Virus record (IMG/VR): IMGVR_UViG_3300049435_000120 | Span: 1 to 32,871 of that record | DNA from: a virus | Reading direction: 5' to 3' (one strand) | DNA: 32,871 nucleotides | Part shown: piece by piece, positions 3,308-25,674 of the stretch | Layout: every line of letters starts with the position of its first letter | How positions within the stretch are numbered: position 1 is the stretch's first letter | Position numbers and translations under genes: made by a program | The notes under the pieces: generated by a model | What the model saw: the letters and a program-made list of their open reading frames with translations, nothing else | Database searches by the model: none | Told to the model about the DNA's origin: nothing

Positions 3308-3421
3308 TACTCTTCCCCCGTCGACCTCCGCGATCTCCTCGTGCTCATTCTGCTCTCGGCAATCGCGGGCTGTTTCGCCGCGGCCGTCGTCATCCTCATG
3401 TTCGGAGTCCTACTCCGCTAG
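3308..3421 (+). other. Stretch that would encode one membrane helix, no usable start
   Basis: In the frame ending with TAG at 3419, the sequence reads DLRDLLVLILLSAIAG then CFAAAVVILMFGVLLR, a convincing single transmembrane helix. The only in-frame start candidate nearby is GTG at 3341 without a ribosome binding site. The same frame is open back to the TGA that ends the zinc-finger gene (3245). It may be the remains of a small membrane protein, a readthrough extension, or coincidence. I see nothing else in 3248-3417. Confidence 0.22.
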
Positions 3422-6144
3422 CTCGTAGCTGACCAGACATCACCGAAGTCATCGTCGCTGGTCGTGATGAACATCGTACCGTTGTAGTACGACCCGCCCC
3501 AGTAGTTGTCCCCCTCCTGGAAGGCGTTCAGGTCTGTGATTGTCTTCGCTACCAGATCGATCTCGACGGTTGTCTGGCTGCTCGCTCCGCTGCCTCCACC
3601 GACCAGTCGAACGACCGTGTCGGAAACCTGGAGGATCGCCGAGCCGTACCTAGGGGCTAACTCGATACCAGTGAAATTGCCGGTCTCGACAGTCCATGTT
3701 CCCGTCCCCGGATCGAAGGAAAGAAGCACCGGGATCCACCCCGACCCACCGCTCACGCTACCAAGCGCCCAGATCAGTCCGTTGCCAGCAAACAGCATTT
3801 CCACGTCGCTCGAAGAGGAGATGGGCATATCATCCAGCTGCGTCCACGAGTTCGCCACAGGGTCATAGACGTACGCTGTGTTGACCGACCCGTTTCCCGT
3901 AGCCATCTCTACTACGCCGTCCCAGTCCGGAATGGCGTAAAACTTCCCGTCGAGAACGGCTGCGCCTCCGTAATCCTGGGCGAACGGCGGTTGCGTCCCC
4001 CGCGTCCACGTATCCCCCGGAATGTCGTACACCCACATCGACTGCAACAGTGCCGGTCCCAATAGCCACTCAGGGTCCGGGAACGACCCTCCGACACCGA
4101 ACGGTTCGACGTCGTCCCATCCGGTGTCGCCCATGAGCACATAGATCTTGTCGCCGATCCTGCCCGCGTTGCACCCCTCCGACCCGACATGGTCGGGCAG
4201 ACTGGCGAGCTCCGTCCACGTCAACATGAGAGCGTCCCAGCGGTACAGCCGATCCGACCACCACTGATTCCAATGGACGTTCCAGAAGTACCCGCAGATC
4301 ACGTACAGGTACCGCTGATCGGCGCTGGTCACGTAGGCGTACTCGTCCAGCCAATGCGGCGGCAAGGTCCGATCCCCATCACCGATCCAGATGTCGGGAT
4401 CGTCAGCCTGAGGCAGCGGAATATTGCTGTTCGGGACAGCCCTGAAGTATCTGCGATCGCGATAGCCAACCGGCCGATGGCCGATGTGGACGAACCCTGG
4501 GTTCATCCGCTGCGGATCGATCCGAGTGTCGCCGTCGAGCTCCAACCCGAGATCCAGTTCCGCTTTCGCCAACTTCATCGGATACAGCTGATCGAGAACG
4601 AAATCGAACTCGACACTGGAATCCTGAGGAAGCGCGTACCGTTCTGCGCTCGCCAGTGCATAGTCCGGGTACGGGAGGTACGGACTGTAGCCTCCGACAA
4701 CAATCGGATGCCCGTCGACCACGTCGCCTCCGAACGCTACCCGGGGGATCGTCAGATCGTCATGCACTGTCCATGTGTTGGTGGTCGGATCGTACGACTC
4801 TACCGACTGATACGGCGCGACCCCTGCTGTCGCATTCCCACCCGCCATCCACACCTGCCCATCAAACGAAAACATCGCGCTGGCGTAACGGTTGGTATGG
4901 GTCGCTTTCTCGGTGAACGTCGCGAGAGTCGGGTCGTACTCAAACATGTGGCTGGGGGCGGTGGTCCAACTCAGCGTGCTGGAAAAATATGCTTTCCCGT
5001 TGGTATGCCACGTCCCCGACGGGATCAGCATGGTTGGTTTCGTCGCTGTCGACCACACGTCCGTTGCGATGTCGTAGATGTACAGCGTTGTGGATTCGCC
5101 TGTGCAGCAGTACAGCCGCCCGTTGATCGGATCCCCGATCGCTACCGTCAGGTAGCTCGTGGGCGTCGGTGTGATCACCGCCATCGTCGCCCACGTGTTC
5201 GCCGCAGGGTCGTACCGCCATAGATTCGTGGTGGGTCCTCCGACGAACGGGTTATAGCCCCCTACGTAGTAGAGGTACGACCCAACGACCGTTACGCCAC
5301 CCCCCGTTCGAATCCCAGGCATAGGAGCTTTTGCTGTCCACACGTTCAGTGTCGGGTCGTATGCTTCAACACGAACCCCGGACGAGACAACGCTTCCGGT
5401 GCTCCACCCCCCCAGGGCGTAGAGCTTCCCGCCGATAGAAGCCGACTCGACTTCATAACGTCCACCGCTCGGCATCGGCACCACCGGTTCCCACACCGAC
5501 CCGGAAATCCGCCGAGCGTACGCACTGAACGACCCTGCGCCATCCAGAGCAACGTACGTGGTTACGGCGGTACCCGTCGTAGAGATAGCCAGATCGGCCT
5601 GTCCCGCTATCGGTCGGACCGTGGACGTGGACGTCACAATGGTCAGCGTCGGCCAGAACCCCGACCCGCCCGACTGACCATAGAGACCTCGGTACTCGGA
5701 TCCCGACGGGACATCCCCGTTGCGTTGACGGGAACTGGTCAGCGTCATCCGTGTCATACCCGACTGGTTGATACTGGTCAGGAACGCCGCCTCGCTCGTA
5801 TAAACGTCGTACGACCCTCCGGTCATGGAGTTCGCCGGGTACGACGCCAGCAGTGTCTGCGAACCGAGTGAACCGCCAGTCGTCCAGTCAGAGCTAGTGA
5901 GCGTCGACCCCCAATCGAACAGTCTTGCCTCAACGATGAACCCCGGGCCGCCACTCGAAATCTGAAGATAGGTGCGCAACGTCACCGACGTGATCGTGCC
6001 GACCACGCTTGATGTGTCGAACGCCAGTCCGATCTGATACTTGTTGCTGGTGTCCTGCCCTACATATACGACACCACCCGAAGAAGCGCCACCCGCCCAG
6101 CAATACCCGTTGGAAGCGTCGGCACTAATCGTGTACGTCGGCAT
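3418..6144 (-). CDS. Tail-associated double Kelch beta-propeller protein, 908 aa
   Basis: This is the last gene of the late operon; its ATG overlaps the previous stop (TGATG). Residues 1-170 form a beta-rich domain (YQIGLAFDTSS, TSVTLRTYLQIS, WPTLTIV) of the jelly-roll/DNRLRE-like kind found on surface proteins. Residues about 215-500 hold six Kelch motifs with the usual hydrophobic-GG and YDP..N.W signatures (GGKLYALGG, YDPTLNVW, YLYYVGGY, YDPAANTW, VWMAGG, YDPTTNTW). After a linker with EFDFVLDQLYPM, residues about 600-908 hold a second set of about six (KIYVLMGDTG, YDIPGDTW, KFYAIPDWDG, YDPVANSW, FDPGTGTW). This gives two six-bladed propellers. No signal peptide is present. The probable role is receptor or glycan recognition at the tail tip. 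The Kelch assignment is firm; binding is inference. Confidence 0.85.
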   Translation of the reverse strand: MPTYTISADASNGYCWAGGASSGGVVYVGQDTSNKYQIGLAFDTSSVVGTITSVTLRTYLQISSGGPGFIVEARLFDWGSTLTSSDWTTGGSLGSQTLLASYPANSMTGGSYDVYTSEAAFLTSINQSGMTRMTLTSSRQRNGDVPSGSEYRGLYGQSGGSGFWPTLTIVTSTSTVRPIAGQADLAISTTGTAVTTYVALDGAGSFSAYARRISGSVWEPVVPMPSGGRYEVESASIGGKLYALGGWSTGSVVSSGVRVEAYDPTLNVWTAKAPMPGIRTGGGVTVVGSYLYYVGGYNPFVGGPTTNLWRYDPAANTWATMAVITPTPTSYLTVAIGDPINGRLYCCTGESTTLYIYDIATDVWSTATKPTMLIPSGTWHTNGKAYFSSTLSWTTAPSHMFEYDPTLATFTEKATHTNRYASAMFSFDGQVWMAGGNATAGVAPYQSVESYDPTTNTWTVHDDLTIPRVAFGGDVVDGHPIVVGGYSPYLPYPDYALASAERYALPQDSSVEFDFVLDQLYPMKLAKAELDLGLELDGDTRIDPQRMNPGFVHIGHRPVGYRDRRYFRAVPNSNIPLPQADDPDIWIGDGDRTLPPHWLDEYAYVTSADQRYLYVICGYFWNVHWNQWWSDRLYRWDALMLTWTELASLPDHVGSEGCNAGRIGDKIYVLMGDTGWDDVEPFGVGGSFPDPEWLLGPALLQSMWVYDIPGDTWTRGTQPPFAQDYGGAAVLDGKFYAIPDWDGVVEMATGNGSVNTAYVYDPVANSWTQLDDMPISSSSDVEMLFAGNGLIWALGSVSGGSGWIPVLLSFDPGTGTWTVETGNFTGIELAPRYGSAILQVSDTVVRLVGGGSGASSQTTVEIDLVAKTITDLNAFQEGDNYWGGSYYNGTMFITTSDDDFGDVWSATS

Positions 6145-6551
6145 CAGTCAGCCGTCAGTACCAAGGTGTTCGCGGCGAACTGCGGAATGTCATTGGTGGC
6201 AACCGCCAGCGATGATGTCAACGCCCCCCAAGCGATCATGTTCGAAGCCGCTGTAGCTGACGCGTGGTTCATAAGCATCCAGTGCGTCAGCGTGCCCCAA
6301 CTCCCCGACGCCGTAGGGAACGTGATCGCCACCCCGTTCTTCTTCTGCGAGCTCACAGCCGCAGGCCAGTTCGTCGTGTTGTTCGTCACCGCCACTCTGG
6401 CATAACCGTTTCCGCTCGGTTCGGTTCCCAGCGTCGAATCAGTCGGCGCGGACGTGCAAGCAGCAACGTAAACCGTAGCGTCTTTGGTGAACCCCGCCCC
6501 CAGGATGGCATCCAGAATGTTGTTTTCGTAGGTGTCCGAGGCTGACCCCAC
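6144..6551 (-). CDS. Small virion protein, paralogue B of a four-member family, 135 aa
   Basis: The product has the family pattern seen in three other genes of this operon: a short N-terminal helix (SDTYENNILDAIL), a strand VYVAACTSAPTDS, the G.GYARVAV core, then ITFPTASGSWGTLTH and WGAL near the end. The GTG start has AGGAGG five bases upstream, overlapping the previous stop. Relatives in phages are usually annotated only as tail fibre or minor tail proteins. This copy has diverged in the C-terminal part: MLMNHASATAAS replaces the more usual GIYDA.TSGN. It is followed without a gap by the Kelch gene, so it may link that protein to the tail, which is inference. Confidence 0.75.
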   Translation of the reverse strand: MGSASDTYENNILDAILGAGFTKDATVYVAACTSAPTDSTLGTEPSGNGYARVAVTNNTTNWPAAVSSQKKNGVAITFPTASGSWGTLTHWMLMNHASATAASNMIAWGALTSSLAVATNDIPQFAANTLVLTAD

Positions 6552-6560
6552 TGCTTCCTC

Positions 6561-6944
6561 CTACGCCAGACTCGCCGTGATGGAACCAACAACGAACGTC
6601 ATAGCATCCGCCGCCAACAACGTTCGCGAGCTTGGCAACGGACCCTGGAACAACATGTTGCCGCTGGTGAGTGCATCCATGATGGCGCAATGCGTGACCG
6701 TACAGGCAGGCATGTTATTGAAGGTGATGACGCCAGTGTTCAACGCTATCCCGTTGCTCGGCGCACCGAACGCGACAGCCTGTCGCGCATAACTTCCCCC
6801 GGTCACCTCCGCGCCCGGTGCAGCATCCGAAGTGGTCGAGGTGAACAACGCCAAGTACACCGTGGGCGGCGACGTGTATGTCGTCGCACGAAGAACGGCG
6901 TTGAGCAGCGCATTCTCCAAGTAATCACTCAGGTTCCCACTCAC
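6561..6944 (-). CDS. Small virion protein, paralogue C of a four-member family, 127 aa
   Basis: The N-terminus LSDYLENALLNAVLR aligns with SDTYENNILDAIL and SDVYEKKILDLIF of its paralogues. VYLALFTSTTSDAAPG, GGSYARQAV, VTHCAIMDALTSGNMLF and the closing FVVGSITASL complete the family pattern. The GTG start overlaps the previous stop as GTGA and has no clear ribosome binding site, so it is probably made by re-initiation. This family is common in actinobacteriophage and other siphovirus tail modules, but its structural role is not known to me. Confidence 0.78.
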   Translation of the reverse strand: MSGNLSDYLENALLNAVLRATTYTSPPTVYLALFTSTTSDAAPGAEVTGGSYARQAVAFGAPSNGIALNTGVITFNNMPACTVTHCAIMDALTSGNMLFQGPLPSSRTLLAADAMTFVVGSITASLA

Positions 6945-7333
6945 AGCAGCACACGTCCAGACAGGTTCCCCACCGGGAAACTGATCGTGTCACCAGAACT
7001 CACCGCTCTCGGAGTGGCCAGAGCCCCCCACCACAACAGGTTCCCGCTCGTCAACGCATCGTAAATACCGACATGCGTGACTGTGCCCCAAGACGCCCCA
7101 GCGGGAGGGAACGTCACAGCGTTGTCCGATTCGATTGTTCCGTCGACAGCCGCTGACCAGTCTGTTGTCATCAGCGGCTCTCTGGCATACCCCGATCCGG
7201 TTACCTCATGCAGGTTGGGCGTGGCAGCCAATGGCTGTGGTTCTGCCACATGCAGCGACAGAAACCCAGGAATCGTGCCGCCACGAAGGGCGTAATTGAG
7301 AATCGAATTGGCGAATACAACCCCCACGCCCAT
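6941..7333 (-). CDS. Small virion protein, paralogue D of a four-member family, 130 aa
   Basis: The ATG has AGGAGG six bases upstream. The core matches the family: SGYAREPL, AVTFPPAGASWGTVTH, VGIYDALTSGNLLWWGAL, and SSGDTISFPVGNLSG. The N-terminal helix is more diverged (VVFANSILNYALRG). It is the first of three tandem copies (with the 127- and 135-residue proteins); a fourth lies some 14 kb upstream at 21231. The tandem set probably arose by local duplication followed by strong divergence and may form different positions of one assembly. Confidence 0.8.
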   Translation of the reverse strand: MGVGVVFANSILNYALRGGTIPGFLSLHVAEPQPLAATPNLHEVTGSGYAREPLMTTDWSAAVDGTIESDNAVTFPPAGASWGTVTHVGIYDALTSGNLLWWGALATPRAVSSGDTISFPVGNLSGRVLL

Positions 7334-7334
7334 G

Positions 7335-7859
7335 TCAACCTCCTGATGCTGATGTCAGCCTGCGACGTCGCAAAGCGGCGGGGGACATGTCCGCTGGCGC
7401 CGGAACGACCCCTGATCGTGCCTCCTGCTGATCTGCTACCTGCTGCAGTTGAAGCGCGGCGTACGCCACAAACGCTTCGAGAGTGAGTCTCTGCACCACC
7501 CCCCCAACAAACGTCATCACCACCGCATCAGACGTGAAGCTCAGCGGAACGAGACCGTCAACCGTTGGATCGTGCGGCTGGAAGTACACCAACCGATCAT
7601 CGACGTAGACGAGAAATGCCAAATCGGGAATCGCGAACTGAGCTCGCACTACGTCGGCGGGAACGCCGTTGACTGGAGTTACACCATCCCACCATTCCCA
7701 ACGGACGCGGTTCGCTGCCGCCGCAGCGAACGCATCCGTAGGGATGTTCAGCAGCACCGCGTCGAGTACTTCCGGAGTGAACGTGATCCCCTGGTTGGCG
7801 AACCTATCGATGAGCGTCGCCCGAGTGCCATCCTGGATTGTCACGGCCACACCGTCCAC
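7335..7859 (-). CDS. Virion-module protein of unknown function, 174 aa
   Basis: The gene starts within the last 19 bases of the upstream fibre gene at a GTG without a clear ribosome binding site; GTGs slightly downstream are possible starts. The N-terminal 50 residues are helical (ATLIDRFANQGITFTPEVLDAV), followed by a beta-rich part (RVRWEWWDGVTPVNG, LAFLVYVDDRLVYF). The sequence ends with an Ala/Gln-rich helix (LEAFVAYAALQLQQVADQQEA) and a basic tail. No family is recognised. Placed between a fibre gene and the tandem small virion proteins, it is probably part of the tail fibre complex or its chaperone. Confidence 0.7.
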   Translation of the reverse strand: MDGVAVTIQDGTRATLIDRFANQGITFTPEVLDAVLLNIPTDAFAAAAANRVRWEWWDGVTPVNGVPADVVRAQFAIPDLAFLVYVDDRLVYFQPHDPTVDGLVPLSFTSDAVVMTFVGGVVQRLTLEAFVAYAALQLQQVADQQEARSGVVPAPADMSPAALRRRRLTSASGG

Positions 7860-9202
7860 GGATGACTCAACGGATCAGCCCACCCGTAGGAGTACAAGCA
7901 GATCGACACAGTGAGATCCTGCGCTGTCGGTGGTTCGGCCGTGTCTCCCTGATCGACGTCAACGGTGAGACAATCCCCTTCAACAAGCTCCATGATCGCG
8001 GTGGGTGGCATCCGAGCACCGATCTGCAGCCCGACCGGGATCCGTGGGCGATCAGCGTCAGCCGTGAAAATCGAAGCGAAGGTTGGCGTAGCACCACTGC
8101 CTTTCTTCACATTGACGATCACCGCCTGGTTGGACGGCATGTAGCCCCGCCCCAGCGAAGCTCTCACCGCTACGATCGTGGCCTGAGGATGCTCACACAC
8201 CCAAACGTTCGTGCCGGTCAACGCGAACACGTTGCCGTCCATCGTGAACGTGACGATCTCCGGAAACGCCGACACCCCCGACAACGGAAGCCGTCCCTGC
8301 GCTTCCGCCATGTCGGTCAGCTGAACCTTCGCCGGGCTCCCCACCGTCACGCCCTGCAGCGGCGGCTGCCCAAACGTTGTCGGTGTCCCCACGTCCGTGT
8401 AAGGCGACACCGACTGTGTCGTCAACAATGAGTTCGTGTAATCGTTGACCGTGAACGTGCGGTAGATCCGCCACGACCACCCAGCCGGAAGCGCCGTAGG
8501 CAAAGAGAGAATCACCGAGTTCGTCTGCCGAGTCGTGTTCGTCAACGGTCTCGTCCGGTCACAGTTCGGCGCCAGCCCAGTATCAACGAAAGTCGTTGGG
8601 GGTGTCGCCATAGACATGTCAACCGACGCAACGAAGAAGTAGCCGGGACCGTCCGGGGCCTGACGGTACACATTGAACGCGGTCGCTCCGGACGGCAACG
8701 CAGGCAACGTGATTGTGATGGCGTTCGTTGATGTCGCCGAATCGACCAGGAGATACTCCGGGTTCACAGCGGGCGTTTCGAAGTTGCTCACTGCCCCCGA
8801 GTAGGCGGAGAGGACGTAGTAGTAGTTGCCCGGAAGAAGTGTGCCTCCTGTCGTAGCGAACGACAGGTTGGGTTTCGCCGGGGTTTGGATCTGCGCCGGG
8901 GTGTCCACGAACGCTTCGGGAGAAGCCCCCGATTCGGTGCCGGTGGGACTGATCATCGTGTACCGATAGAAGACCCGTCGCCCGGACGGCAGAACCCCTG
9001 ACGTCGACACGACCGTGAGCGACGCCCCCAACGTCGGAGTGTTGCTCGTTCCTACCCCACCGCTGTGGTGATGTCCTTCAACCCCGAGGAAGAGCAGGAG
9101 GTCTTCGGTATCGCGGTCGGCGTCAGAGAACTTGTAGCTGTCGTCGGAGATGTTGTCCCCGACGTTGATTTTCTTCAGTCCATACCGACTCGTGAATCCC
9201 AT
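7841..9202 (-). CDS. Tail fibre or minor tail protein with Fn3-like segments, 453 aa
   Basis: The N-terminus (GLKKINVGDNISDDSYKFSD) followed by LLLFLGVEGHHHSGG looks like a conserved virion-attachment segment, and HHHSGG-type motifs are common in phage fibres. Residues about 75-290 contain two or three repeated beta modules marked by FYRYTMISPTGTES, YYYVLSAYSG, AFNVYRQAPDGPGYF and WRIYRTFTVND, which resemble fibronectin type III-like strands. The C-terminal 150 residues (ATIVAVRASLGRGYMPS, VIVNVKKGSG, GDCLTVDVDQGDT) look like a beta-sandwich tip domain seen in other phage tail proteins. The start has GGGAAAGGG just upstream. It is likely structural and involved in adsorption. Confidence 0.78.
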   Translation of the reverse strand: MGFTSRYGLKKINVGDNISDDSYKFSDADRDTEDLLLFLGVEGHHHSGGVGTSNTPTLGASLTVVSTSGVLPSGRRVFYRYTMISPTGTESGASPEAFVDTPAQIQTPAKPNLSFATTGGTLLPGNYYYVLSAYSGAVSNFETPAVNPEYLLVDSATSTNAITITLPALPSGATAFNVYRQAPDGPGYFFVASVDMSMATPPTTFVDTGLAPNCDRTRPLTNTTRQTNSVILSLPTALPAGWSWRIYRTFTVNDYTNSLLTTQSVSPYTDVGTPTTFGQPPLQGVTVGSPAKVQLTDMAEAQGRLPLSGVSAFPEIVTFTMDGNVFALTGTNVWVCEHPQATIVAVRASLGRGYMPSNQAVIVNVKKGSGATPTFASIFTADADRPRIPVGLQIGARMPPTAIMELVEGDCLTVDVDQGDTAEPPTAQDLTVSICLYSYGWADPLSHPWTVWP

Positions 9203-9262
9203 GTGCCCTTTCCCTTCACCGCTCCTGGCAAGGAGATCGTCTCGGCCGCTTCTGAATCTGAA

Positions 9263-12001
9263 TCACCAGCGAGCTCGCAGATTCTGACTCTTTCGAATCA
9301 CCACGTTTGACGGTCGACTGATGGAAGGGACCCGCGTAACGACACCCGTCGTTGACGGCGCGAATGCAGCATGGTCATCGGACTGGCTGAAAATGTGCCC
9401 ATCCGGGAACCCGTCCGCCTCCCATTCAGCGCGACTGACGTAAGAAAGATTCATGAAGGGGGCATCCCCTCCGATGCTCCCAGGTCCGCGTTCGAACCGG
9501 AACAGGAGCCCACCAAGATCGTCGGTGGCATAGAGATAGTTGCCATCACGCGAGTAGCAACACTCGATCATCTCGTCGGCAAAGTTACCCACCCGCGCCC
9601 AAGATCCCAACTGGTATGTATTTGTGACGACCTTGTCCCATGAAATCTCCACGAGAGCTCCGATGGGATATGCGTGACGAACCGCCACCACCAGACCATC
9701 ACCGCCGGGATGTACATCCAACCCCCAGTTCCCTTGCACGATCGGGTTGCTGCCAATCCGCGTGAAAGGCAACTGATCTTCAATGTCCCCCCACAGCAAC
9801 CACGGCTCGTACAACCCTGTTATCGGGTCCGTCGTATAAATTCCGGCCGGATGCGAGTTGTCATACACCGCCCCGATAAGCAAACCGTCTGAGGCCAGGA
9901 CACCATCTGGCACAACCATCGAGTTCCACGGCGTACTCACGGTCTGATCGCTCAACACCACATCGCTGACAAAATCTCCAGTCTCCGCATCCAAAACAAC
10001 CATCATATTTCGTCGGGAGTAAGCCGCTATAGCGTAGATGAGGGTGCCATCCGCCGAGTAAACAGGGGGCGTGTCGATGCCAAAGTTTGCCAGGCTCCAC
10101 AGCACATCCCCAGCAATGTTCATGCAGACAAGATCCATATCGCCGAACCATCCGGGGACGCAGAAGGTTTGCCCGTCTGGACTAACCGCCGGTCCGTACC
10201 CCCAAGTATCTCGACCCTTCGCGTAGGGATGGACCGCAACCAGATTCCCTTCGTCGTCAAGGAACATCAGCGCGGCGCAGTTTTCTGGAACGGGACTGTC
10301 GGGGAACGCGGAGAGAAACGGCCGTGCGCTTTCAGGGTATGTGGCGAGCCAAACATCTCTCAACATTCCGTCCTGGACTGAGCTCCCATGGTAGTTCTCT
10401 AAACCAGTTATCGCTACGACAATCGACGCTTGGGTGGCGTCCATCATCGGACCGAATGGGAGCTCTGCGTCAGGACCTGCGATAGCCAAACTTGCAACAA
10501 GCCAGCTGCCCGCCGGATATCCGCCCGACTCGTCCTCAACGATGTAGCTGCGAGCGTCCAGCGGATTGCGCTCGAAAAACGCCACCGTGGGCTTCCTCGG
10601 CCCCTGCGCTACCGCTGGCACAGCCGGTCGGAGAGAGATCGCTACCTGTGCCGTCGACGCACTAAGAGAGGACAGTTGCTGCCCATTGCCCCATGTCCAA
10701 ACGGGAGCGAATGGCGTTCCAATCCAGGCTAGCCGATCGATGGTCGCAAATCGGATCTGTCCGTAGCTCCCAAGACCAAGTCGAGAAACATAGCCTCTAT
10801 CTTGATACGAACCATATGTCCCCAGTCCGTAAGAAGGGTTGTCTACATAGAAATTCGTGACCGTTGTTGTCAAAAAGAGAGTCTGGATGAGTCTCGCGTT
10901 GTTGTAGCTGACGGTGATCGGATCAGATTCAGGGGATCCTTCCGCCGGGGACATTCCCTGTACCGCGTCGATCGGGTTCGTCGGATGGACACCACGATAG
11001 ATGGTGATATCCACCTGAGTGCCGGGCCCAAGCGATCCAATAGTCGTTGGATCGCCCGTCTGCCACACCTTGTAGGCCACCAGGCACCGCGGGTCGGTAT
11101 TCGAATATAGAGAGGTCCAGCCAGACGGCAGCGTAATCGCGTTTGCCGTCGGCGCCCACGCCTGAAGTAAGAGAAAATCTCCCGGCTGCACCGCATACCA
11201 GTTGTTCCCTGGAGCAGCCAAATCGAGCGTGTAAGGGTCGTATTGTCCCGTTGTATAAAAGTAGCTCGGAATCGGCCCAAAATCCTGGAAGCTGGTCATC
11301 ACTCCCGGATCTGGATCCGGATAGACAATCGTTGACCCGGAGCTCTTCGCTCCGACAATGTCTAGACTGCGATGCGTATCGAGGTACTCGGAGTAAGCAT
11401 ACGAGCCAGCGTCACCTGTGCTAAACCCCGTCCCGTATCGAGGTATCGCTCCCATGCCTCGATACACGATCGCGTCGAATCGCCAAAGCACGCTACGATC
11501 CACGGTCCAGCTAAACACCTGAGTCCTGTCAGCCATGAATCGATAGGCGGATTGGATGAACCGCACACCGTTCACCCCGGAAAGATGCAACCATCCGCTG
11601 CTCGTCGCGTTCTGGGTTCTCAGTGGCGGATGCTGCTCGACAAGGCTTACGCCTCCAGTGACCTCCGTAACACAGAGCACGAGTATGACAACATCACCCT
11701 TTTGCCCCGGCACCGCCAGCGTCGCCGGGTTCCCCACTCCTTCATTCCGATACTCCCCAACGGACGTTGGAAAAGGATTGGCCGCTTGGTAGAAGGTGAC
11801 TGTCGTCCCAGACGGATATTGCCAACTGACTCCAGTGACAAGCAGAAAGGAGGTGGGTGTTTTCCCCTGGTACGAATAGAGCGGACCGTTGGCGATCCTG
11901 ATCCAACCATTCGCTGGGAAACCGGACGTCGAATCCACCGTCACGTTCGTAGGACCACTGACACTCTGCATCCCCACAAAATGGGCTACGAGTGTCGTCA
12001 T
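9263..12001 (-). CDS. Tail fibre with lectin-like modules and a C-terminal beta-propeller, 912 aa
   Basis: Residues 1-75 form a small beta domain (NVTVDSTSGFPANGWIRI, LVTGVSWQYPSGTTV). Two related modules follow. The second, about residues 265-475, has GDFLLLQAWAPTANAITLPS, GWTSLY and YKVWQTGDPTT, a pattern shared with the 260-residue protein just upstream. From about residue 480 to 880 the sequence has propeller character of the quinoprotein/YVTN kind: AVSPDGQTFCVPGW, LVCMNIAGDVLWSL, PPVYSADGTLIYAIAA, VVLDAETGDFVSD, YSRDGNYLYATDDLGG. There is no ribosome binding site before the ATG; a 12-codon ORF overlapping it (ATGA) may supply coupling. The probable role is cell-surface recognition. The module boundaries are approximate. 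Confidence 0.78.
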   Translation of the reverse strand: MTTLVAHFVGMQSVSGPTNVTVDSTSGFPANGWIRIANGPLYSYQGKTPTSFLLVTGVSWQYPSGTTVTFYQAANPFPTSVGEYRNEGVGNPATLAVPGQKGDVVILVLCVTEVTGGVSLVEQHPPLRTQNATSSGWLHLSGVNGVRFIQSAYRFMADRTQVFSWTVDRSVLWRFDAIVYRGMGAIPRYGTGFSTGDAGSYAYSEYLDTHRSLDIVGAKSSGSTIVYPDPDPGVMTSFQDFGPIPSYFYTTGQYDPYTLDLAAPGNNWYAVQPGDFLLLQAWAPTANAITLPSGWTSLYSNTDPRCLVAYKVWQTGDPTTIGSLGPGTQVDITIYRGVHPTNPIDAVQGMSPAEGSPESDPITVSYNNARLIQTLFLTTTVTNFYVDNPSYGLGTYGSYQDRGYVSRLGLGSYGQIRFATIDRLAWIGTPFAPVWTWGNGQQLSSLSASTAQVAISLRPAVPAVAQGPRKPTVAFFERNPLDARSYIVEDESGGYPAGSWLVASLAIAGPDAELPFGPMMDATQASIVVAITGLENYHGSSVQDGMLRDVWLATYPESARPFLSAFPDSPVPENCAALMFLDDEGNLVAVHPYAKGRDTWGYGPAVSPDGQTFCVPGWFGDMDLVCMNIAGDVLWSLANFGIDTPPVYSADGTLIYAIAAYSRRNMMVVLDAETGDFVSDVVLSDQTVSTPWNSMVVPDGVLASDGLLIGAVYDNSHPAGIYTTDPITGLYEPWLLWGDIEDQLPFTRIGSNPIVQGNWGLDVHPGGDGLVVAVRHAYPIGALVEISWDKVVTNTYQLGSWARVGNFADEMIECCYSRDGNYLYATDDLGGLLFRFERGPGSIGGDAPFMNLSYVSRAEWEADGFPDGHIFSQSDDHAAFAPSTTGVVTRVPSISRPSNVVIRKSQNLRARW

Positions 12002-16818: not shown

Positions 16819-19119
16819 TCACGCGCTCGTCTCGTAGGTGAACGTGGTGCTGATAATGTCGCCCGTCCCCCAGGTGAAAGGCACGGTACTCTGAAGGTCA
16901 TAGAAGGTGGTGTAAGTGCCGTCCGATCTCCATCCTCGGATATTCACGGCACCCCCGGCGCTGTCCCATTCGGAGAACCCACCGTACAGATTGATCGCGG
17001 CGTCGGTAAACATGGCAGGGCCGAAAATCGAATCGGTAATCCACGAATTCACAGCTAAGGGCAGTGTGAACTTGGTGCCCGCCCCTACTGCACTGGTCGA
17101 TCCCAGAACGAAGATGAAAACGATGGTCACCGACTTGGCCTGACGGACGTACTTGGCGGTGAGCGTCCCGTTGCCCACCGTCATATTGGTCAAGGTGGGT
17201 GACCAGGTGATCCACGCTCCTGGTGTGACCGCCCCACCTGACAGAGTCAGTGTGCCGGGGATGTTCACATCTTCAGTTGCTGTACCTAGGCGGACCTGAT
17301 TGGCAGCCGTCGTCGTCGCCCCGGCGCCGAGAGCTACAGCGGTTGCATGGGACGCAGTGGTCGACGTACCGATAGCTACCGAACTCGTGCCCGAAGCAGC
17401 GGACACCGATCCGATGGCTATCGCGGTAAACCCGGCGGTTGCTCCTGGAGCGCCCGACAGGGAACCTCCGATCGCAACTGCCGCTGTAGCTGTCGCCCGA
17501 GCGCCAGCGACAGCGGCAGTGTTGCCTCCCCCGATGGCGATGGACGAAGCACCAGTCGCCTGTGGGGCACTCGTACCGTCCTGCCCTGAACCAATAGCGA
17601 GAGCCGCTACAGATGATGCTGCTACGGCAAACGCTCCAACAGCAATACCCTGACCGATCTGACTGTTCGCCTTACGACCGATGGCAATAGCATCGGCTAC
17701 AGAGGCAGAGGCTCCGGCGTTGGTGGCGTCACCAGATCCGATGGCAATAGCACTGGCAGCAGACGCCCTCGCCCCGGCGACCGCCGTACCGTTTGACGCC
17801 CCGATGGCGATAGCACCCTGAGCGCTGGCGATGGGGGCAGCAGTGGCGCTAACTCCGGCTCCGATCGCAATGGCCTCTGCTCCGGTAGTGGCCTGGGCGA
17901 ATGAACCGATTGCGAGGCTCTGAATGACTGACGCCACGGAAGTACGACCGAAGGCGATGGCGTCAGAGGCTGACGCAGATGCTCCTGCATTGGTAGCGTC
18001 TCCACCACCAATGGCGAGGGTATAGCTAGCGCTAGCTCTCGGACCCGTTCCTGTCGAAAAAGATGCTCCAATAGCCACTGCTCCCGGCTGAGTCGCTTGA
18101 GCAGAACCCGCAAGGAAAGCACCGGCACCAATAGCGACTCCCTGTCCCTGCGACGAGAGAGCGAACGCTCCAATAGCAATGTTCTGGCTCTGAGAGGCGA
18201 CCGCACCGGGGCCGAGGGCCACGGTAAGGCCGCCAGTAGCCGCCGCCCCAGCGAGAGCGGCCGTTCCGGAGCCAATGGCTATACAGCCGGGGTTGCTAGC
18301 TCGGGCTCCAGCGACCGCTGTATCGTCAGAAGCACCGATGGCAATAGCACCCTGAAAGGACGCGATAGGTGCAGCGGTAGCACTGATCCCAGCGCCTATC
18401 GCAATTGCTTCGGCTTGCGTTGTCGCTTGAGCAAAAGCCCCAATGGCAATGCCCTGAATGATCGAGGCGACAGATGCACGTCCCAGGGCAATAGTGTTCG
18501 CCACAGACGCCGAAGCCCCAGCGTTCGTGGCGTCACCCGATCCGATCGCGATGGCACTGGTGGCCGACGCTTTAGCTCCAGCAACCGCAGTGGCGTTGCT
18601 TGCTCCGATGGCGATGCTGCCCTGCGCCGTGGCCGCGGGACTGGCCGTGGCGCTGACACCTGCCCCGATGGCGATGGCTTCGGCACCGGTGGTCGCCTGG
18701 GCGAAGGACCCGATGGCGATACCCTGGATGATGCTGGCGACCGATGTCCGACCGATGGCGATGGAGTCGGTGGCGATAGCGCTGGCCCCGGCGACCGTCG
18801 CACTGCCCCCACCGATGGCAACGGAGGTGGTCCCCGAAGCGCGGGCTCCGAGGATCATCGGGGCCCCACTTGCCCCGATGGCGATGCTGTTCACCCCGGT
18901 GGCCGCCGGGGCGGCCGCGATGGTCGTTCCTCCACCAAGAGCGAGCGCACCCGTCGCATTCGCCAGGGCGTAGCGCCCGACGGCGACCGCGTCATCCACG
19001 TCGGGGATGTTGGCGCCGATGCGACCCGCCTGTGACCACCTACCCAGGGCGATGGTGCCGTCGCCCTGGTTGACCGAAGGCCCGGCCAGCACCAACCCCG
19101 AAGGAGTGCCATTATTCAT
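16819..19119 (-). CDS. YadA-like beta-roll tail fibre, 766 aa
   Basis: Residues about 20-600 are made of AIAIG motifs spaced 15-21 residues apart, the hallmark of the YadA-head left-handed beta-roll that forms trimers. A super-repeat of about 91 residues with five AIAIG motifs (for example ASIIQGIAIGSFAQATTGAE) recurs about five times. ANQVRLGTATEDVNIPGTLT ends the roll in the usual way and leads into a C-terminal tip (WITWSPTLTNMTVGNGTLTA, YVRQAKSVTIVFIFVLGS) like tips of other phage fibres. There is no signal peptide and no C-terminal membrane anchor, so it is a phage fibre and not an autotransporter. Its likely role is the receptor-binding long fibre. Confidence 0.88.
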   Translation of the reverse strand: MNNGTPSGLVLAGPSVNQGDGTIALGRWSQAGRIGANIPDVDDAVAVGRYALANATGALALGGGTTIAAAPAATGVNSIAIGASGAPMILGARASGTTSVAIGGGSATVAGASAIATDSIAIGRTSVASIIQGIAIGSFAQATTGAEAIAIGAGVSATASPAATAQGSIAIGASNATAVAGAKASATSAIAIGSGDATNAGASASVANTIALGRASVASIIQGIAIGAFAQATTQAEAIAIGAGISATAAPIASFQGAIAIGASDDTAVAGARASNPGCIAIGSGTAALAGAAATGGLTVALGPGAVASQSQNIAIGAFALSSQGQGVAIGAGAFLAGSAQATQPGAVAIGASFSTGTGPRASASYTLAIGGGDATNAGASASASDAIAFGRTSVASVIQSLAIGSFAQATTGAEAIAIGAGVSATAAPIASAQGAIAIGASNGTAVAGARASAASAIAIGSGDATNAGASASVADAIAIGRKANSQIGQGIAVGAFAVAASSVAALAIGSGQDGTSAPQATGASSIAIGGGNTAAVAGARATATAAVAIGGSLSGAPGATAGFTAIAIGSVSAASGTSSVAIGTSTTASHATAVALGAGATTTAANQVRLGTATEDVNIPGTLTLSGGAVTPGAWITWSPTLTNMTVGNGTLTAKYVRQAKSVTIVFIFVLGSTSAVGAGTKFTLPLAVNSWITDSIFGPAMFTDAAINLYGGFSEWDSAGGAVNIRGWRSDGTYTTFYDLQSTVPFTWGTGDIISTTFTYETSA

Positions 19120-21230: not shown

Positions 21231-21665
21231 TCAGTCTTGAGTCATTGTCAAAGAGGAGACGGCGCACGTAACCGTGTCTCCTGAACTGATCGTTCTCGGT
21301 GTGGTCAGGTCGCCCCAGTAGACGAGATTCCCTCCAGTCGAAGCGTCGAAAATGCCGAACTGGGTGACGACACCCCATGCTCCCGTAGCCGTCGGGAACG
21401 TGATCGTGCTGTTGTTCGTCGTTGTCCCCAGCGAACCGGAAGCAGCGGTCCAACCAGGAGATCCCGAACGAGGAACAGCAACTCGGGCGTAAGAAGCGCC
21501 CGACACCTCAGTGCCGCCACCAGCATCCGATGGAGTGGCCGTGAACAGCCCGACCCACAGATTCGTGGCATCGAGACCCAACGGGACAGTCGCGGACGCG
21601 TTGGCATTCCTGAAGATCAGGTCCAATATCTTCTTCTCGTACACATCCGACATGGATCCGGCCAT
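21231..21665 (-). CDS. Small virion protein, paralogue A of a four-member family, 144 aa
   Basis: The ATG has AGGAG six or seven bases upstream; a second Met (MSDVYEK) four codons later has no such site. The sequence is the most typical member of the family: SDVYEKKILDLIF, LWVGLFTATPSDAGGGTEVS, GASYARVAV, ITFPTATGAWGVVTQFGIFD, GGNLVYWGDLTTPR and SSGDTVTC. Members of this family are frequently annotated as phage tail fibre proteins without experimental support. The other three copies are at 6144, 6561 and 6941. It is placed just after the hub-proximal genes, so it may occupy a more central position than the tandem copies. Confidence 0.8.
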   Translation of the reverse strand: MAGSMSDVYEKKILDLIFRNANASATVPLGLDATNLWVGLFTATPSDAGGGTEVSGASYARVAVPRSGSPGWTAASGSLGTTTNNSTITFPTATGAWGVVTQFGIFDASTGGNLVYWGDLTTPRTISSGDTVTCAVSSLTMTQD

Positions 21666-22078: not shown

Positions 22079-22211
22079 GACGTTCCTCTATGTGGGGCGG
22101 TGAAGGTGTGGGACGTGACCCTTGTCGTTTCTTCCGCCACGACTCCTCAACTCGTCGCTGCAACGCCTTCGGTAATTCCGAATGGTCACGGAACGGTTCG
22201 CCGACCTTCAT
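22056..22211 (-). CDS. Small basic protein between hub and minor tail genes, 51 aa
   Basis: The ATG overlaps the hub stop as ATGA, and the ORF fills the 130-base gap before the next gene, overlapping it by 23 bases. The product starts MKVGEPFRDHSELPKALQRR and is rich in Arg, Lys, Glu and Pro, with no hydrophobic segment. The tight coupling at both ends supports translation. The function is unknown; a helical start (ELPKALQRRVEESWRKK) suggests a peptide that binds another tail protein or nucleic acid. Confidence 0.58.
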   Translation of the reverse strand: MKVGEPFRDHSELPKALQRRVEESWRKKRQGSRPTPSPPHIEERHGRPQDS

Positions 22212-25200
22212 GACGCCCTATGGATTTCGTGTTCACGGTTCGTTCCTGTCCCCGTGATCTGTGCTGTACGACCAGGACCAACCCGGTTCGTGGTCAGCTG
22301 ATACGTCCACACGCCCGTGTCGAAATCGTGACTCGAAGAGATTCCCCGGACGTAATGCACGTCCGTCTCCCCTGTGATCTCCTCGTAGACCCGCACCTGA
22401 TCGTTGATTTGGATGGCGGGGTGAGCGACGCACGTCACCGTCCCCTGCAAAAGCTGGAAGGCCATGAACACTTCGATCAGCGCTGCCATGTCTTCCTGTT
22501 GCTTCTTCGTGATGTTGAGAGGCACCGGCAGCATCGCTGGTCGGACCATCCCTCGAAGAAGCTGTGTGATGAGGTCGTTCGAGGGGACACGCCGCGTGGT
22601 GATCGTCGTATCCGTTGCAATGGTCGGGTCGTCCGACGTGACGATGAGCTCCGAGCGGGCGGGGGCATCGACGTATGACAACGCGTATGTCATCAGGAGG
22701 AGGCGTTCGTCGAGTTCCGGGATCTCCCCGGTCCGCTGCCCGGTCTCCTGGATGAAATTGCCATAGGTGTACCAGTTCGGCGATTCGAAGCGGGCGCCAC
22801 CTTCCTCATCCACCCAGAAGTGGAACCCGACGATGTCCTTCACCGCCTTGATGCCATCGATAATCGGCTTCTTGTCGAATGTGTCCGGAGGGAAAGCATC
22901 GTTGGCGAACGTCCCGGTGGTCTCCAGGCTGCCGTACACCTCGCTCGTGCCACGCAGAAGCCACCCTGCCCACAGCAACAGATCCCTGATGATGTCGGTG
23001 AAGTCGGAGTAGTTGCCGTCGAACCGTTTCGTTCCCGAGTAGTCGAGAGGCAGCGACCCTTCGAAGGGAGCGGTACCGAATGAGAACACGCCGCCATCAC
23101 CAGCTACGACGAGATACCCCTCTCCGTCGTTTGTGGCGTCCATGCCGATGATCGGGTCGTTCAGGGCTGTCAACGCCGCTGCGTAGTCTCCATTTGCCGT
23201 CTGGTAGACCGCTGCCCCCAGGGCGTAGACGGAGCCTTTCTGGCTCACGACCCAGTAGCCGTCTCCTTGGGGTCGAGCCGCCATCCCTGCCGCCGTGTCG
23301 TCAACGGGGATGGGAGCGTTGTTGTAGTAGACAGCATCACCGAAAGCGAAGACATGCCCGCGTTCAGTCAGAATCCAGTAGCCGTTTCCGGATGGAGTTG
23401 CCGCCATGTCGACAGCAGGCGATTCGAGCAGCCCAACTCCACTGCCGTGGAAGGCTGCATTCCCGAACGAGAAGACGCCACCGTCCCTGCCGAGGAGCCA
23501 ATACCCTCGCCCTGAAGGGTGAGCAACGATGCGCCAGATCCGTCCCGACCCATTCGGATCAACCGTGGCACGACCGTAGTACAACGCCTCGCCGAACGCG
23601 AAGACAGCACCGTCCGTCCCAGCTGACCAGTACCCCCGTCCCAGCGGATCCATGTCGAATCCGACCATCGGAGCAGCGTCGACGCCCCCGACAGCGTCCC
23701 CCATGTCCGTCGCGTTCCCAAACTGGAAGACGCCACCGCCGTCAGCGACAAGCCAGTAGCCGCCATTGTCTGAGGTTCGAGCCATACCCCGAACCGCGTA
23801 CGGCGTAGACCCCAACGAACCATGGAACCCCGCATCCCCATAGGAGAAGATCCCGCCATCGGCAGCGACGAGCCAGTAGCCGCCATTCGTAGTCGTCGGG
23901 ACGATGTCGATGACCGGCTGACTCAACGGTCCGGCGTTCGCCCCGCCGTGATAGGTCGCGTTCCCGAAGGCGAACACGGCACCGTCGTCCGCAACGATCC
24001 AGTAGCCACCACTGTCAGAGGTTCCGGCTATCCCGGTAGCAGACGCTCCCGGAGCAACCGAAGCGTTGCCGTGGTAGCCAGCGTTCCCGTAGGCGTACAC
24101 CGCTCCGTCCTCAGCGAGGAGCCAATACCCAGCACTGTTCGATGTTCTCGCCATGTCAGCGACGACGACGCTGGTAGCGGGCTGATCACCGACATTGGCA
24201 GCGTCGCCAAGCGCCCAGATGACCCCGCTCCCGGAAAGAAGCCAGTAGCCATGTCCCGTGTGGGTTGGCTCGATGGCAACGAGGCTCTCGATGTCCACCA
24301 AAACTGGCCAATCTCCGATACTCCCATAGTTGATCGCCGCCCCGAGGGTGAACACCTCGCCACCCGTGTTGAGTACCCACAGGCCATCTCCCGTCGGCGT
24401 GGCGGCAACCCCAGCGATACTGCCAACACTTCCCGCTCCCCGCGACCCGAAGAACGTCGTGTTGTAACAGAACACCCCGCCGTCCGTGCCGAGGAGGCCA
24501 TATCCCTGACTGTCTGCATCGAAGGCGATATCCGTGACATACCTTCGACCTTCGGATCCCGGTCCGAAAGTGACCGTTCCCGCCGCCGGATCGATCCGGT
24601 CATACACGTTGATCGCCGGATAGAAGAACGGCACATAGTTCCAGCGGGAGTACGCCAACGGATATTTCCCTGGCGGCATGAACGGCAGATACATCTGCTG
24701 CTCGATGAGAAGCTTGCACATGTCTCTGCACGTCAGCGTGATGAGCCCGTCGGTGCCGAGCGCTACCTGGTCGATCAGCCACACCCCGCTGAGAAGCAGG
24801 TTGCCGTCCTGAACAGCCTGGACGAGCGTCTTCCCGTACCCGCCGTACCCTTCGTAGGTTCGCAGCAGAGCGTTGGGGATGAGAACGTCAACCCAGTCGG
24901 TCGGCATCGGTTCCCATCGCGTAGCCAGCGAAGGGTCCCGCAACCGCCACGAAAGATAGCCGGGGTTCCCTACACGTCGCCGCGCCGTGCTGATCGTTGC
25001 GAGGCTCTCGGTGTTGTACAGCACGATCGTGCACGACGCCGCGTCGGTGTCGACTCCTCGGTCCCAGCTGATCGACTTGAGATTCGGAATCTCCGTTTCG
25101 ATCTGAGCGTTGTTCACGTCCTGGAACCAACGAAACGGGAGCTTCCCCGGGTCCGTGGTGAAGACGTCACTGACTTGCCGAAGGCTCCAGTCCTTCTCGA

Positions 25201-25342
25201 CCGTCAAACGACCGTTGGAACGATTCTCTCCGATGAACGGCGCGACCTGCCGAGGGACACCGGCCCCGAGGAGATCCTTCATGTACTGGGGTATGGTCCT
25301 CACGAAATCACTGCCGCCGAAGCCTGGTAGGTATGGCGCCAC
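22208..25342 (-). CDS. Tail hub protein with inserted 12-repeat propeller-like domain, 1,044 aa
   Basis: Residues 1-265 (IPNLKSISWDRGVDTDAASC, WVDVLIPNALLRTYEGYGG, GLITLTCRDMCKLLIEQQMY) and 771-1044 (YSDFTDIIRDLLLWAGWLL, DIVGFHFWVDEEGG, AIQINDQVRVYEEITGETDV) resemble the two halves of siphovirus tail hub proteins that follow the tape measure and bind the Dit ring. Between them residues 280-770 hold 12 repeats of 40-47 residues, each with GYWLVxxDGGxFxFGxAxxxG. This repeat is known to me from secreted actinobacterial proteins, where it is thought to form propeller blades. The GTG start overlaps the previous gene by 43 bases. The hub call rests on synteny and general pattern; the insertion is plain in the sequence. 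Confidence 0.82.
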   Translation of the reverse strand: MAPYLPGFGGSDFVRTIPQYMKDLLGAGVPRQVAPFIGENRSNGRLTVEKDWSLRQVSDVFTTDPGKLPFRWFQDVNNAQIETEIPNLKSISWDRGVDTDAASCTIVLYNTESLATISTARRRVGNPGYLSWRLRDPSLATRWEPMPTDWVDVLIPNALLRTYEGYGGYGKTLVQAVQDGNLLLSGVWLIDQVALGTDGLITLTCRDMCKLLIEQQMYLPFMPPGKYPLAYSRWNYVPFFYPAINVYDRIDPAAGTVTFGPGSEGRRYVTDIAFDADSQGYGLLGTDGGVFCYNTTFFGSRGAGSVGSIAGVAATPTGDGLWVLNTGGEVFTLGAAINYGSIGDWPVLVDIESLVAIEPTHTGHGYWLLSGSGVIWALGDAANVGDQPATSVVVADMARTSNSAGYWLLAEDGAVYAYGNAGYHGNASVAPGASATGIAGTSDSGGYWIVADDGAVFAFGNATYHGGANAGPLSQPVIDIVPTTTNGGYWLVAADGGIFSYGDAGFHGSLGSTPYAVRGMARTSDNGGYWLVADGGGVFQFGNATDMGDAVGGVDAAPMVGFDMDPLGRGYWSAGTDGAVFAFGEALYYGRATVDPNGSGRIWRIVAHPSGRGYWLLGRDGGVFSFGNAAFHGSGVGLLESPAVDMAATPSGNGYWILTERGHVFAFGDAVYYNNAPIPVDDTAAGMAARPQGDGYWVVSQKGSVYALGAAVYQTANGDYAAALTALNDPIIGMDATNDGEGYLVVAGDGGVFSFGTAPFEGSLPLDYSGTKRFDGNYSDFTDIIRDLLLWAGWLLRGTSEVYGSLETTGTFANDAFPPDTFDKKPIIDGIKAVKDIVGFHFWVDEEGGARFESPNWYTYGNFIQETGQRTGEIPELDERLLLMTYALSYVDAPARSELIVTSDDPTIATDTTITTRRVPSNDLITQLLRGMVRPAMLPVPLNITKKQQEDMAALIEVFMAFQLLQGTVTCVAHPAIQINDQVRVYEEITGETDVHYVRGISSSHDFDTGVWTYQLTTNRVGPGRTAQITGTGTNREHEIHRAS
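23033..24505 (-). repeat. 12 in-frame propeller-like repeats inside the hub gene
   Basis: Each unit begins GYWLV or a close variant (GYGLL, GLWVL, GYWIV, GYLVV) followed by DGG.F.FG.A..HGS. Unit lengths are 40, 45, 40, 41, 42, 40, 42, 43, 41, 41, 47 and a shorter last one. Units are diverged at the DNA level, so the array is old, not a recent tandem expansion. Confidence 0.9.
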
Positions 25343-25674
25343 GGGTGGCTCGCCTTCCTGCCGCGAGTCGGATTGAACGAAGTCAGGTACACCCAGAACT
25401 GGCGTCCAAGATCATCGGTCAGCCGGATCTTGTTCCGCTTACCGAACCACACAATGAACGCGTCCAGTTGTGCCTGTTCGAGGATCGTGCCGCTGAAGTC
25501 GATCTTCTTTGGATCGTCGCGCCCCTCGAAAACCAGCATTGCCCCGTCAGGAGCCGCCGCTGTCTGATATTCGATCTTCTTGACCAGCCCAGGGGTTCCC
25601 CCTTCGTTGGGGTTGATCGCGAACGTGTACGTCTCGCTCGTGTACGGATCGAAGAAGGTCCATCTCGTCACCAT
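25300..25674 (-). CDS. Minor tail protein, small distal-tail-like, 124 aa
   Basis: I chose the ATG at 25674, one base after the tape measure stop, with AGGA seven bases upstream; the frame is open further but that part lies inside the tape measure. The product runs MVTRWTFFDPYTSETYTFAI, then FEGRDDPKKIDFSGTI, FIVWFGKRNKIRLTDDLGRQ and FWVYLTSFNPTRGRKASHPW. Proteins with FEGRD.P..I.FSGT.L and LTDDLGR.FWVY..SF.P.R are found directly after tape measure genes in many actinobacteriophages and are called minor tail proteins. It is likely the distal ring or tail-completion protein joining tube to hub. The exact structural role is inferred from gene order. Confidence 0.78.
   Translation of the reverse strand: MVTRWTFFDPYTSETYTFAINPNEGGTPGLVKKIEYQTAAAPDGAMLVFEGRDDPKKIDFSGTILEQAQLDAFIVWFGKRNKIRLTDDLGRQFWVYLTSFNPTRGRKASHPWRHTYQASAAVIS

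Follow-up and report, generated by a model that had tools for sequence, protein, structure and literature searches.

A predicted phage tail hub carrying two probable tandem beta-propellers at the variable site of a little-known hub family

The stretch of DNA analysed here (the window; an IMG/VR virus record of 32,871 bases) encodes a protein that is predicted to be a trimeric tail hub of the gp27/gp44 type, in which an insertion separates the first tube-like domain from the hub domain that follows it. The insertion would consist of two tandem six-bladed beta-propellers, placed at what appears to be a socket for modules that bind the host surface. From modelling of a relative and comparison with sister hubs, we consider it fairly probable that this whole reading is correct, including the binding of glycans of an actinobacterial host by the twin-propeller insert.

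The interval 22208-25342 on the minus strand is a single uninterrupted open frame of 1044 codons. The start sites of relatives align with V14 of this frame and the GTG codon found there overlaps the stop codon of the upstream gene as GTGA, a 4-base overlap of a type also seen in several relatives; the hub gene is therefore likely to start at this GTG (Table 1). The upstream gene encodes a Dit-like distal tail protein, whose counterpart in the relative L001 also matches phrog_33 (E 8.2e-4), and it is in turn preceded by a probable tape measure gene, recognised by its length only; relatives likewise have a gene of comparable length before that of the Dit-like protein. The hub gene follows both, and tape measure, Dit, hub is the usual gene order of siphophages.

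Table 1. Positions of the hub gene, its parts and the two genes upstream of it (residues are those of the 1044-residue frame)
Feature	Coordinates	Strand	Basis
Tail hub gene	22208..25303	-	Open frame; longest frame from 25342; probable start GTG 25303, 1031 aa
N-terminal hub half, residues 14-234, ending YPLxYxR	24641..25303	-	Conserved in 18 hubs; hub fold in relative L004
Insert and linkers, residues 235-775, 541 aa, at the variable site of the hub family	23018..24640	-	Junctions YPLxY / GNYxDY; same conserved flanks
First six repeat units, residues 266-515, predicted six-bladed propeller 1	23798..24547	-	Unit HMM; window model low-confidence here
Last six repeat units, residues 516-768, predicted six-bladed propeller 2	23039..23797	-	Unit HMM; window model
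C-terminal hub half, residues 776-1044, starting GNYSDFTDIIRDLLLW	22211..23017	-	Conservation; PHROG matches; fold in relative L004
Dit-like distal tail protein gene, 124 aa, overlapping the hub start by 4 bases	25300..25674	-	phrog_33 Dit, E 4.4e-4
Probable tape measure gene, 1657 aa	25676..30649	-	Length and position; no curated family match

Both flanks of the insert are conserved in 17 other hubs. The N-terminal flank of the window protein is 38-63% identical to that of the aligned hubs, with further hubs also matching, and the C-terminal flank is 42-76% identical to that of relatives. Profile searches of the flanks gave weak hub and tail matches among the PHROGs: the C-terminal flank matched phrog_12858 (annotated as unknown) in seven of nine relatives, phrog_1887 (tail protein) in four of the nine and phrog_196 (baseplate hub) weakly in one (E 0.046), and the N-terminal flank gave one very weak match to a baseplate-hub PHROG. 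Sequence searches of the solved structures yielded no match, whether the query was the complete protein, either of its flanks or the discoidin-like domain described below. An AlphaFold2 model of the window protein, built from 11 sequences, was poor (mean pLDDT 48.3). It did not resolve the first propeller, but residues 600-710 reached pLDDT 67-90 and residues 427-768 matched propellers with Z of about 16; this model was used for the propeller only, being too poor elsewhere.

A relative of 769 aa, L004, is 47% identical to the window hub and carries one six-unit array and no discoidin-like domain. Its AlphaFold2 model (26 alignment rows, mean pLDDT 69.9) matched the MuSo2 43 kDa tail protein (3cdd_D, Z 19.0, 299 of 331 residues, model range 24-759) and Mu gp44 (1wru, Z 18.6) in the PDB, with hub-match ranges of up to 24-767. 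Further matches, 8v3w_H (Z 18.5) and 3d37_A (Z 17.8), also had ranges spanning the propeller, and the diffocin hub, contractile-injection-system hubs and VgrG proteins were included. The hub targets are short (~330 residues for Mu gp44 and MuSo2) and their alignments start before the insert and end after it, whereas the insert range, 257-500, was matched separately, by propellers, indicating that the two flanks belong to a single hub that the insert divides. Short viral tail proteins (372-437 aa) could be aligned along the full length of the L004 model, spanning about 780-800 columns, and the T5 tail tip is present in the Foldseek list for this model. The Mu gp44 and MuSo2 hubs thus resemble the two L004 flanks taken together (Z 18.6-19.0 over 290-299 residues); the window hub differs from them by a propeller insert of ~540 aa at one point and has no sequence match to solved hubs. 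We propose that the window flanks form a gp27/gp44-type tail hub, in agreement with an earlier note on this DNA, which had suggested that the joined flanks are hub-like. By structure the assignment is strong, though obtained on a relative, and by sequence it is weak; because the window's own model is poor, it draws on L004, the PHROG matches and the gene order.

A repeat-unit HMM detected exactly 12 GYW(L/V)xxDGG units in the window protein, within residues 272-764, at 29-55 bits each and with a whole-protein E of 5.7e-140, far above chance; the 12 repeats of GYWLVxxDGG type between the hub halves, described in the earlier note, were thereby confirmed. The L004 model folds its six units into six three-stranded blades (residues 262-494), a complete six-blade ring, and the best PDB match of this insert was the NHL domain of TRIM2 (7b96_A, Z 20.7, 222 residues, over 260-495). 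The NHL domain of TRIM2 is a six-bladed propeller. The Pfam propeller families RCC1, Kelch, NHL and WD40 gave nothing above cut-off in the window hub, the best score being 13.4 bits for RCC1_2 against a cut-off of 22.

To place the insert within its family, hubs were collected with flank profiles; a single-protein scan using the C-terminal flank gave no match, and alignment-based profiles were needed. As collected, the family comprises 18 distinct hubs, those of the window, of Caudovirales GX15bay as the one named record and of 16 IMG/VR contigs; nearly all come from environmental viral contigs. Between the conserved YPLxY and GNYxDY motifs the insert varies from 199 to 659 aa. Eleven of the 18 hubs have the repeat at this site, and the other seven hold only a discoidin-like domain there, of ~200 aa, with weak resemblance to F5/8 type C or NedA-like galactose-binding domains (best E 7.6e-4). 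Propeller and discoidin-like domain occur together in eight hubs, and three (window, L001 and L004) have the propeller without the discoidin-like domain, as judged from insert length and sequence. Twelve units fill the slot only in the window hub and in that of L001, which is 71% identical to it and has the same 12-unit array; the nine other arrays at this site are of six units. The hub of GX15bay (QBQ74878.1; MK557849.1, L002 13956-17870) shares both flanks with the window hub (~40% identity) and has a propeller of six units in the same slot; unlike the window hub, it has a discoidin-like domain before the propeller and a second six-unit array after the C-terminal hub half.

The idea that the insertion is peculiar to this hub is not supported, since the same insertion is found in most of the family; it is close to a standard part of these hubs, though a variable one, which is the outcome that the earlier note had named as counting against it. 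The 18 hubs show a fixed site, presence and absence of modules and swapping of inserts, as in evolved tail proteins. As far as these sequences tell, one isolated capture does not account for the insertion, which recurs and is swapped within a little-known hub family. Support in the tree of the hub flanks is too low to tell in what order the propeller and the discoidin-like domain were gained and lost.

Sister hubs carry other modules. The L050 hub (8031-10781) has four LysM domains inside its C-terminal half (PF01476, E 2.4e-21), the L053 hub (8010-10976) has a peptidoglycan peptidase fused to its C-terminus (Peptidase_M15_4, E 1.7e-14), the L020 hub ends in a GDSL hydrolase (E 6.1e-12), and the L012 and L019 hubs have weak B_lectin matches. 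Because members add LysM, peptidase M15, GDSL and probable lectin domains, the hub of this family probably behaves as a socket for candidate wall-binding or sugar-related modules. We also noticed that the LysM insertion of L050 marks a second insertion site in the hub, and that the L008 hub (6213-8822) has ~170 aa inside its N-terminal half that look PA14-like by eye and have no Pfam match. In L005 (7950-11039, 10930-11850) an apparent intein lies directly after the propeller (GNY / CVDIDTEIL ... YITGN / TDYSD), with a frame break inside it.

Swappable binding domains are well known in Dit proteins, in fibres and in separate receptor-binding proteins. The evolved Dit of lactococcal skunaviruses has a variable inserted domain at a fixed site, with none in some phages and two in others, and recombinant phages linked Dit with inserted carbohydrate-binding domains to adsorption to exopolysaccharide-bearing hosts (PMC10688798). 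Like the hubs described here, it is a core protein of the tail tip with a variable insert at a fixed site; there the Dit ring carries carbohydrate-binding modules, whereas in the window family the hub carries propellers and other modules with a presumed binding role. In phage phi11, Gp45 is a trimer; the propeller of each subunit has five blades and a cavity into which GlcNAc of teichoic acid could fit (PMC4901313). Gp45 is a separate, peripheral receptor-binding protein, whereas the window propellers are predicted to be six-bladed and lie inside the hub. The hub of phage lambda also has insertion domains, HDII-ins1 and HDII-ins2, which are not propellers (PMC11101478). Our literature search for a propeller inside a tail hub found no report, and a whole family that swaps modules inside the hub, beside the DNA exit, with propellers of host type is without precedent in the literature searched.

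The wall-related families in sister hubs, together with the precedents of the skunavirus Dit and phi11, suggest that the propellers bind glycans or the cell wall. In the window hub the usual discoidin-like domain is missing and the propeller is doubled, and with three copies of the hub, six propellers would surround the tail tip, just outside the ring. During adsorption these would bind surface or wall glycans of a presumed actinobacterial host, and once bound would press the tip to the wall and position it for injection. The propellers might instead be structural, bracing the tip or anchoring another tail protein (a fibre, the Dit or a minor tail protein) without touching the host. Propellers often serve as scaffolds for contacts between proteins, the hub gene is followed by those of large unassigned proteins, and seven of the 18 relatives lack the propeller, so that it is not core; but the LysM, peptidase M15, GDSL and lectin-like modules of sister hubs point to the wall, and we regard a purely structural role as rather unlikely.

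If glycan binding is the role of the insert, the phage would attach to the wall through a type of module that actinobacteria themselves place on secreted proteins. A broader proposal, which we put forward tentatively and judge less likely than not, is that in this lineage of actinobacterial phages the junction of the first and second hub domains serves as an interchangeable receptor cassette, fitted with host-type propellers, and that host preference follows the module. The hub insert is a defined cassette with natural presence and absence variants and, through the inserts alone, offers a way to test which part of the tail recognises the host cell in uncultured actinobacteriophages.

The origin of the propeller was examined by searches of a genome collection and by trees. 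Matches came from only two MAGs, both titled Actinomycetes, with about 75-80 matches in each, the best of them 43-48% identical, and propeller matches were present in 18 out of 100 genomes belonging to that class. Many of the host repeat proteins start with a signal-like segment and carry other domains, the domain identities being a reading by eye. Together with the L004 model, these matches bear out that the insert is a propeller whose repeat type is frequent among secreted actinomycete proteins. The secreted actinomycete GYWxVxxDGG proteins share the repeat with the window hub, mostly in six units; they differ in being attached to other secreted domains and in falling on a separate branch of the propeller tree. 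With the two longest rows left out, host and hub arrays lie on opposite sides of one branch (97/94), and with all rows the branch has support of 92/96; the tree is unrooted, and the window arrays lie nearest to the host side. The window arrays are also closer to host arrays than to most other hub arrays.

The earlier note had suggested capture from a host surface or wall protein. That this phage recently took the domain from a secreted wall protein of its host would fit the abundance of the repeat in the two MAGs and the closeness of the window arrays to those of hosts; yet host and hub arrays separate at 97/94, the 12-unit array predates the split from L001, and nine other hubs have a six-unit array at this site. 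The data thus give no support to a recent capture from the sampled hosts, and we consider such an event very unlikely. An old transfer between host and hub propellers, in either direction, may have occurred. Constraining the two window propellers together, as expected for a tandem duplication, gave a borderline result (p-AU 0.0499), and a single origin of the window propellers and the L004 array was not rejected (p-AU 0.196). Across 395 genomes from the class to which one host MAG belongs, no hub match was found; this search had no positive control and says little about prophages. A plasmid search gave no match.

The propellers could also act as an enzyme (a glycan hydrolase or lyase) that opens the way to the membrane. 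Phage endosialidases are among the propeller folds (PMC4901313), and the GX15bay hub bears an annotation as glycoside hydrolase family 25; but the window hub has no match to any Pfam enzyme family and the GH25 label is without Pfam support, leaving this reading with a slim chance. We rejected a GH25 domain in the GX15bay hub, as neither it nor the window hub has a Pfam GH25 match; the label probably reflects repeats shared with host GH25-like proteins.

The earlier note had left it between two six-bladed propellers and one large ring. According to the unit HMM, the arrays of all 11 propeller-bearing hubs have either six units or 6+6, one unit of L006 and some of GX15bay scoring very low. Host arrays sampled had six whole units in 10 of 15 cases, five whole and two part units in three, five in one and seven in one. 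Since every family array has six or 6+6 units, two propellers are favoured in the window insert, as much more likely than one ring. A single ring closed by all twelve units, which are contiguous and without a long spacer, is highly improbable, given that six is the unit number of all the other hub arrays and of most host arrays sampled, and that the six units of L004 model as one propeller with a six-bladed best match.

Other genes of the window, all on the minus strand, were also noted; no tRNA genes were found in it. A second, unrelated protein of propeller type is encoded at 3418-6144, a Kelch-repeat protein of 908 aa (PF01344, E 2.6e-29; phrog_12615, phrog_16120). The 766-aa protein encoded at 16819-19119 has eight YadA_head repeat matches (PF05658, E 2.9e-6) and is probably a trimeric fibre or spike. 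Four small genes, at 6144-6551, 6561-6944, 6941-7333 and 21231-21665, all match phrog_240 'head protein' (E 4e-15 to 7e-28); three of them are in tandem, and all lie downstream of the hub gene.
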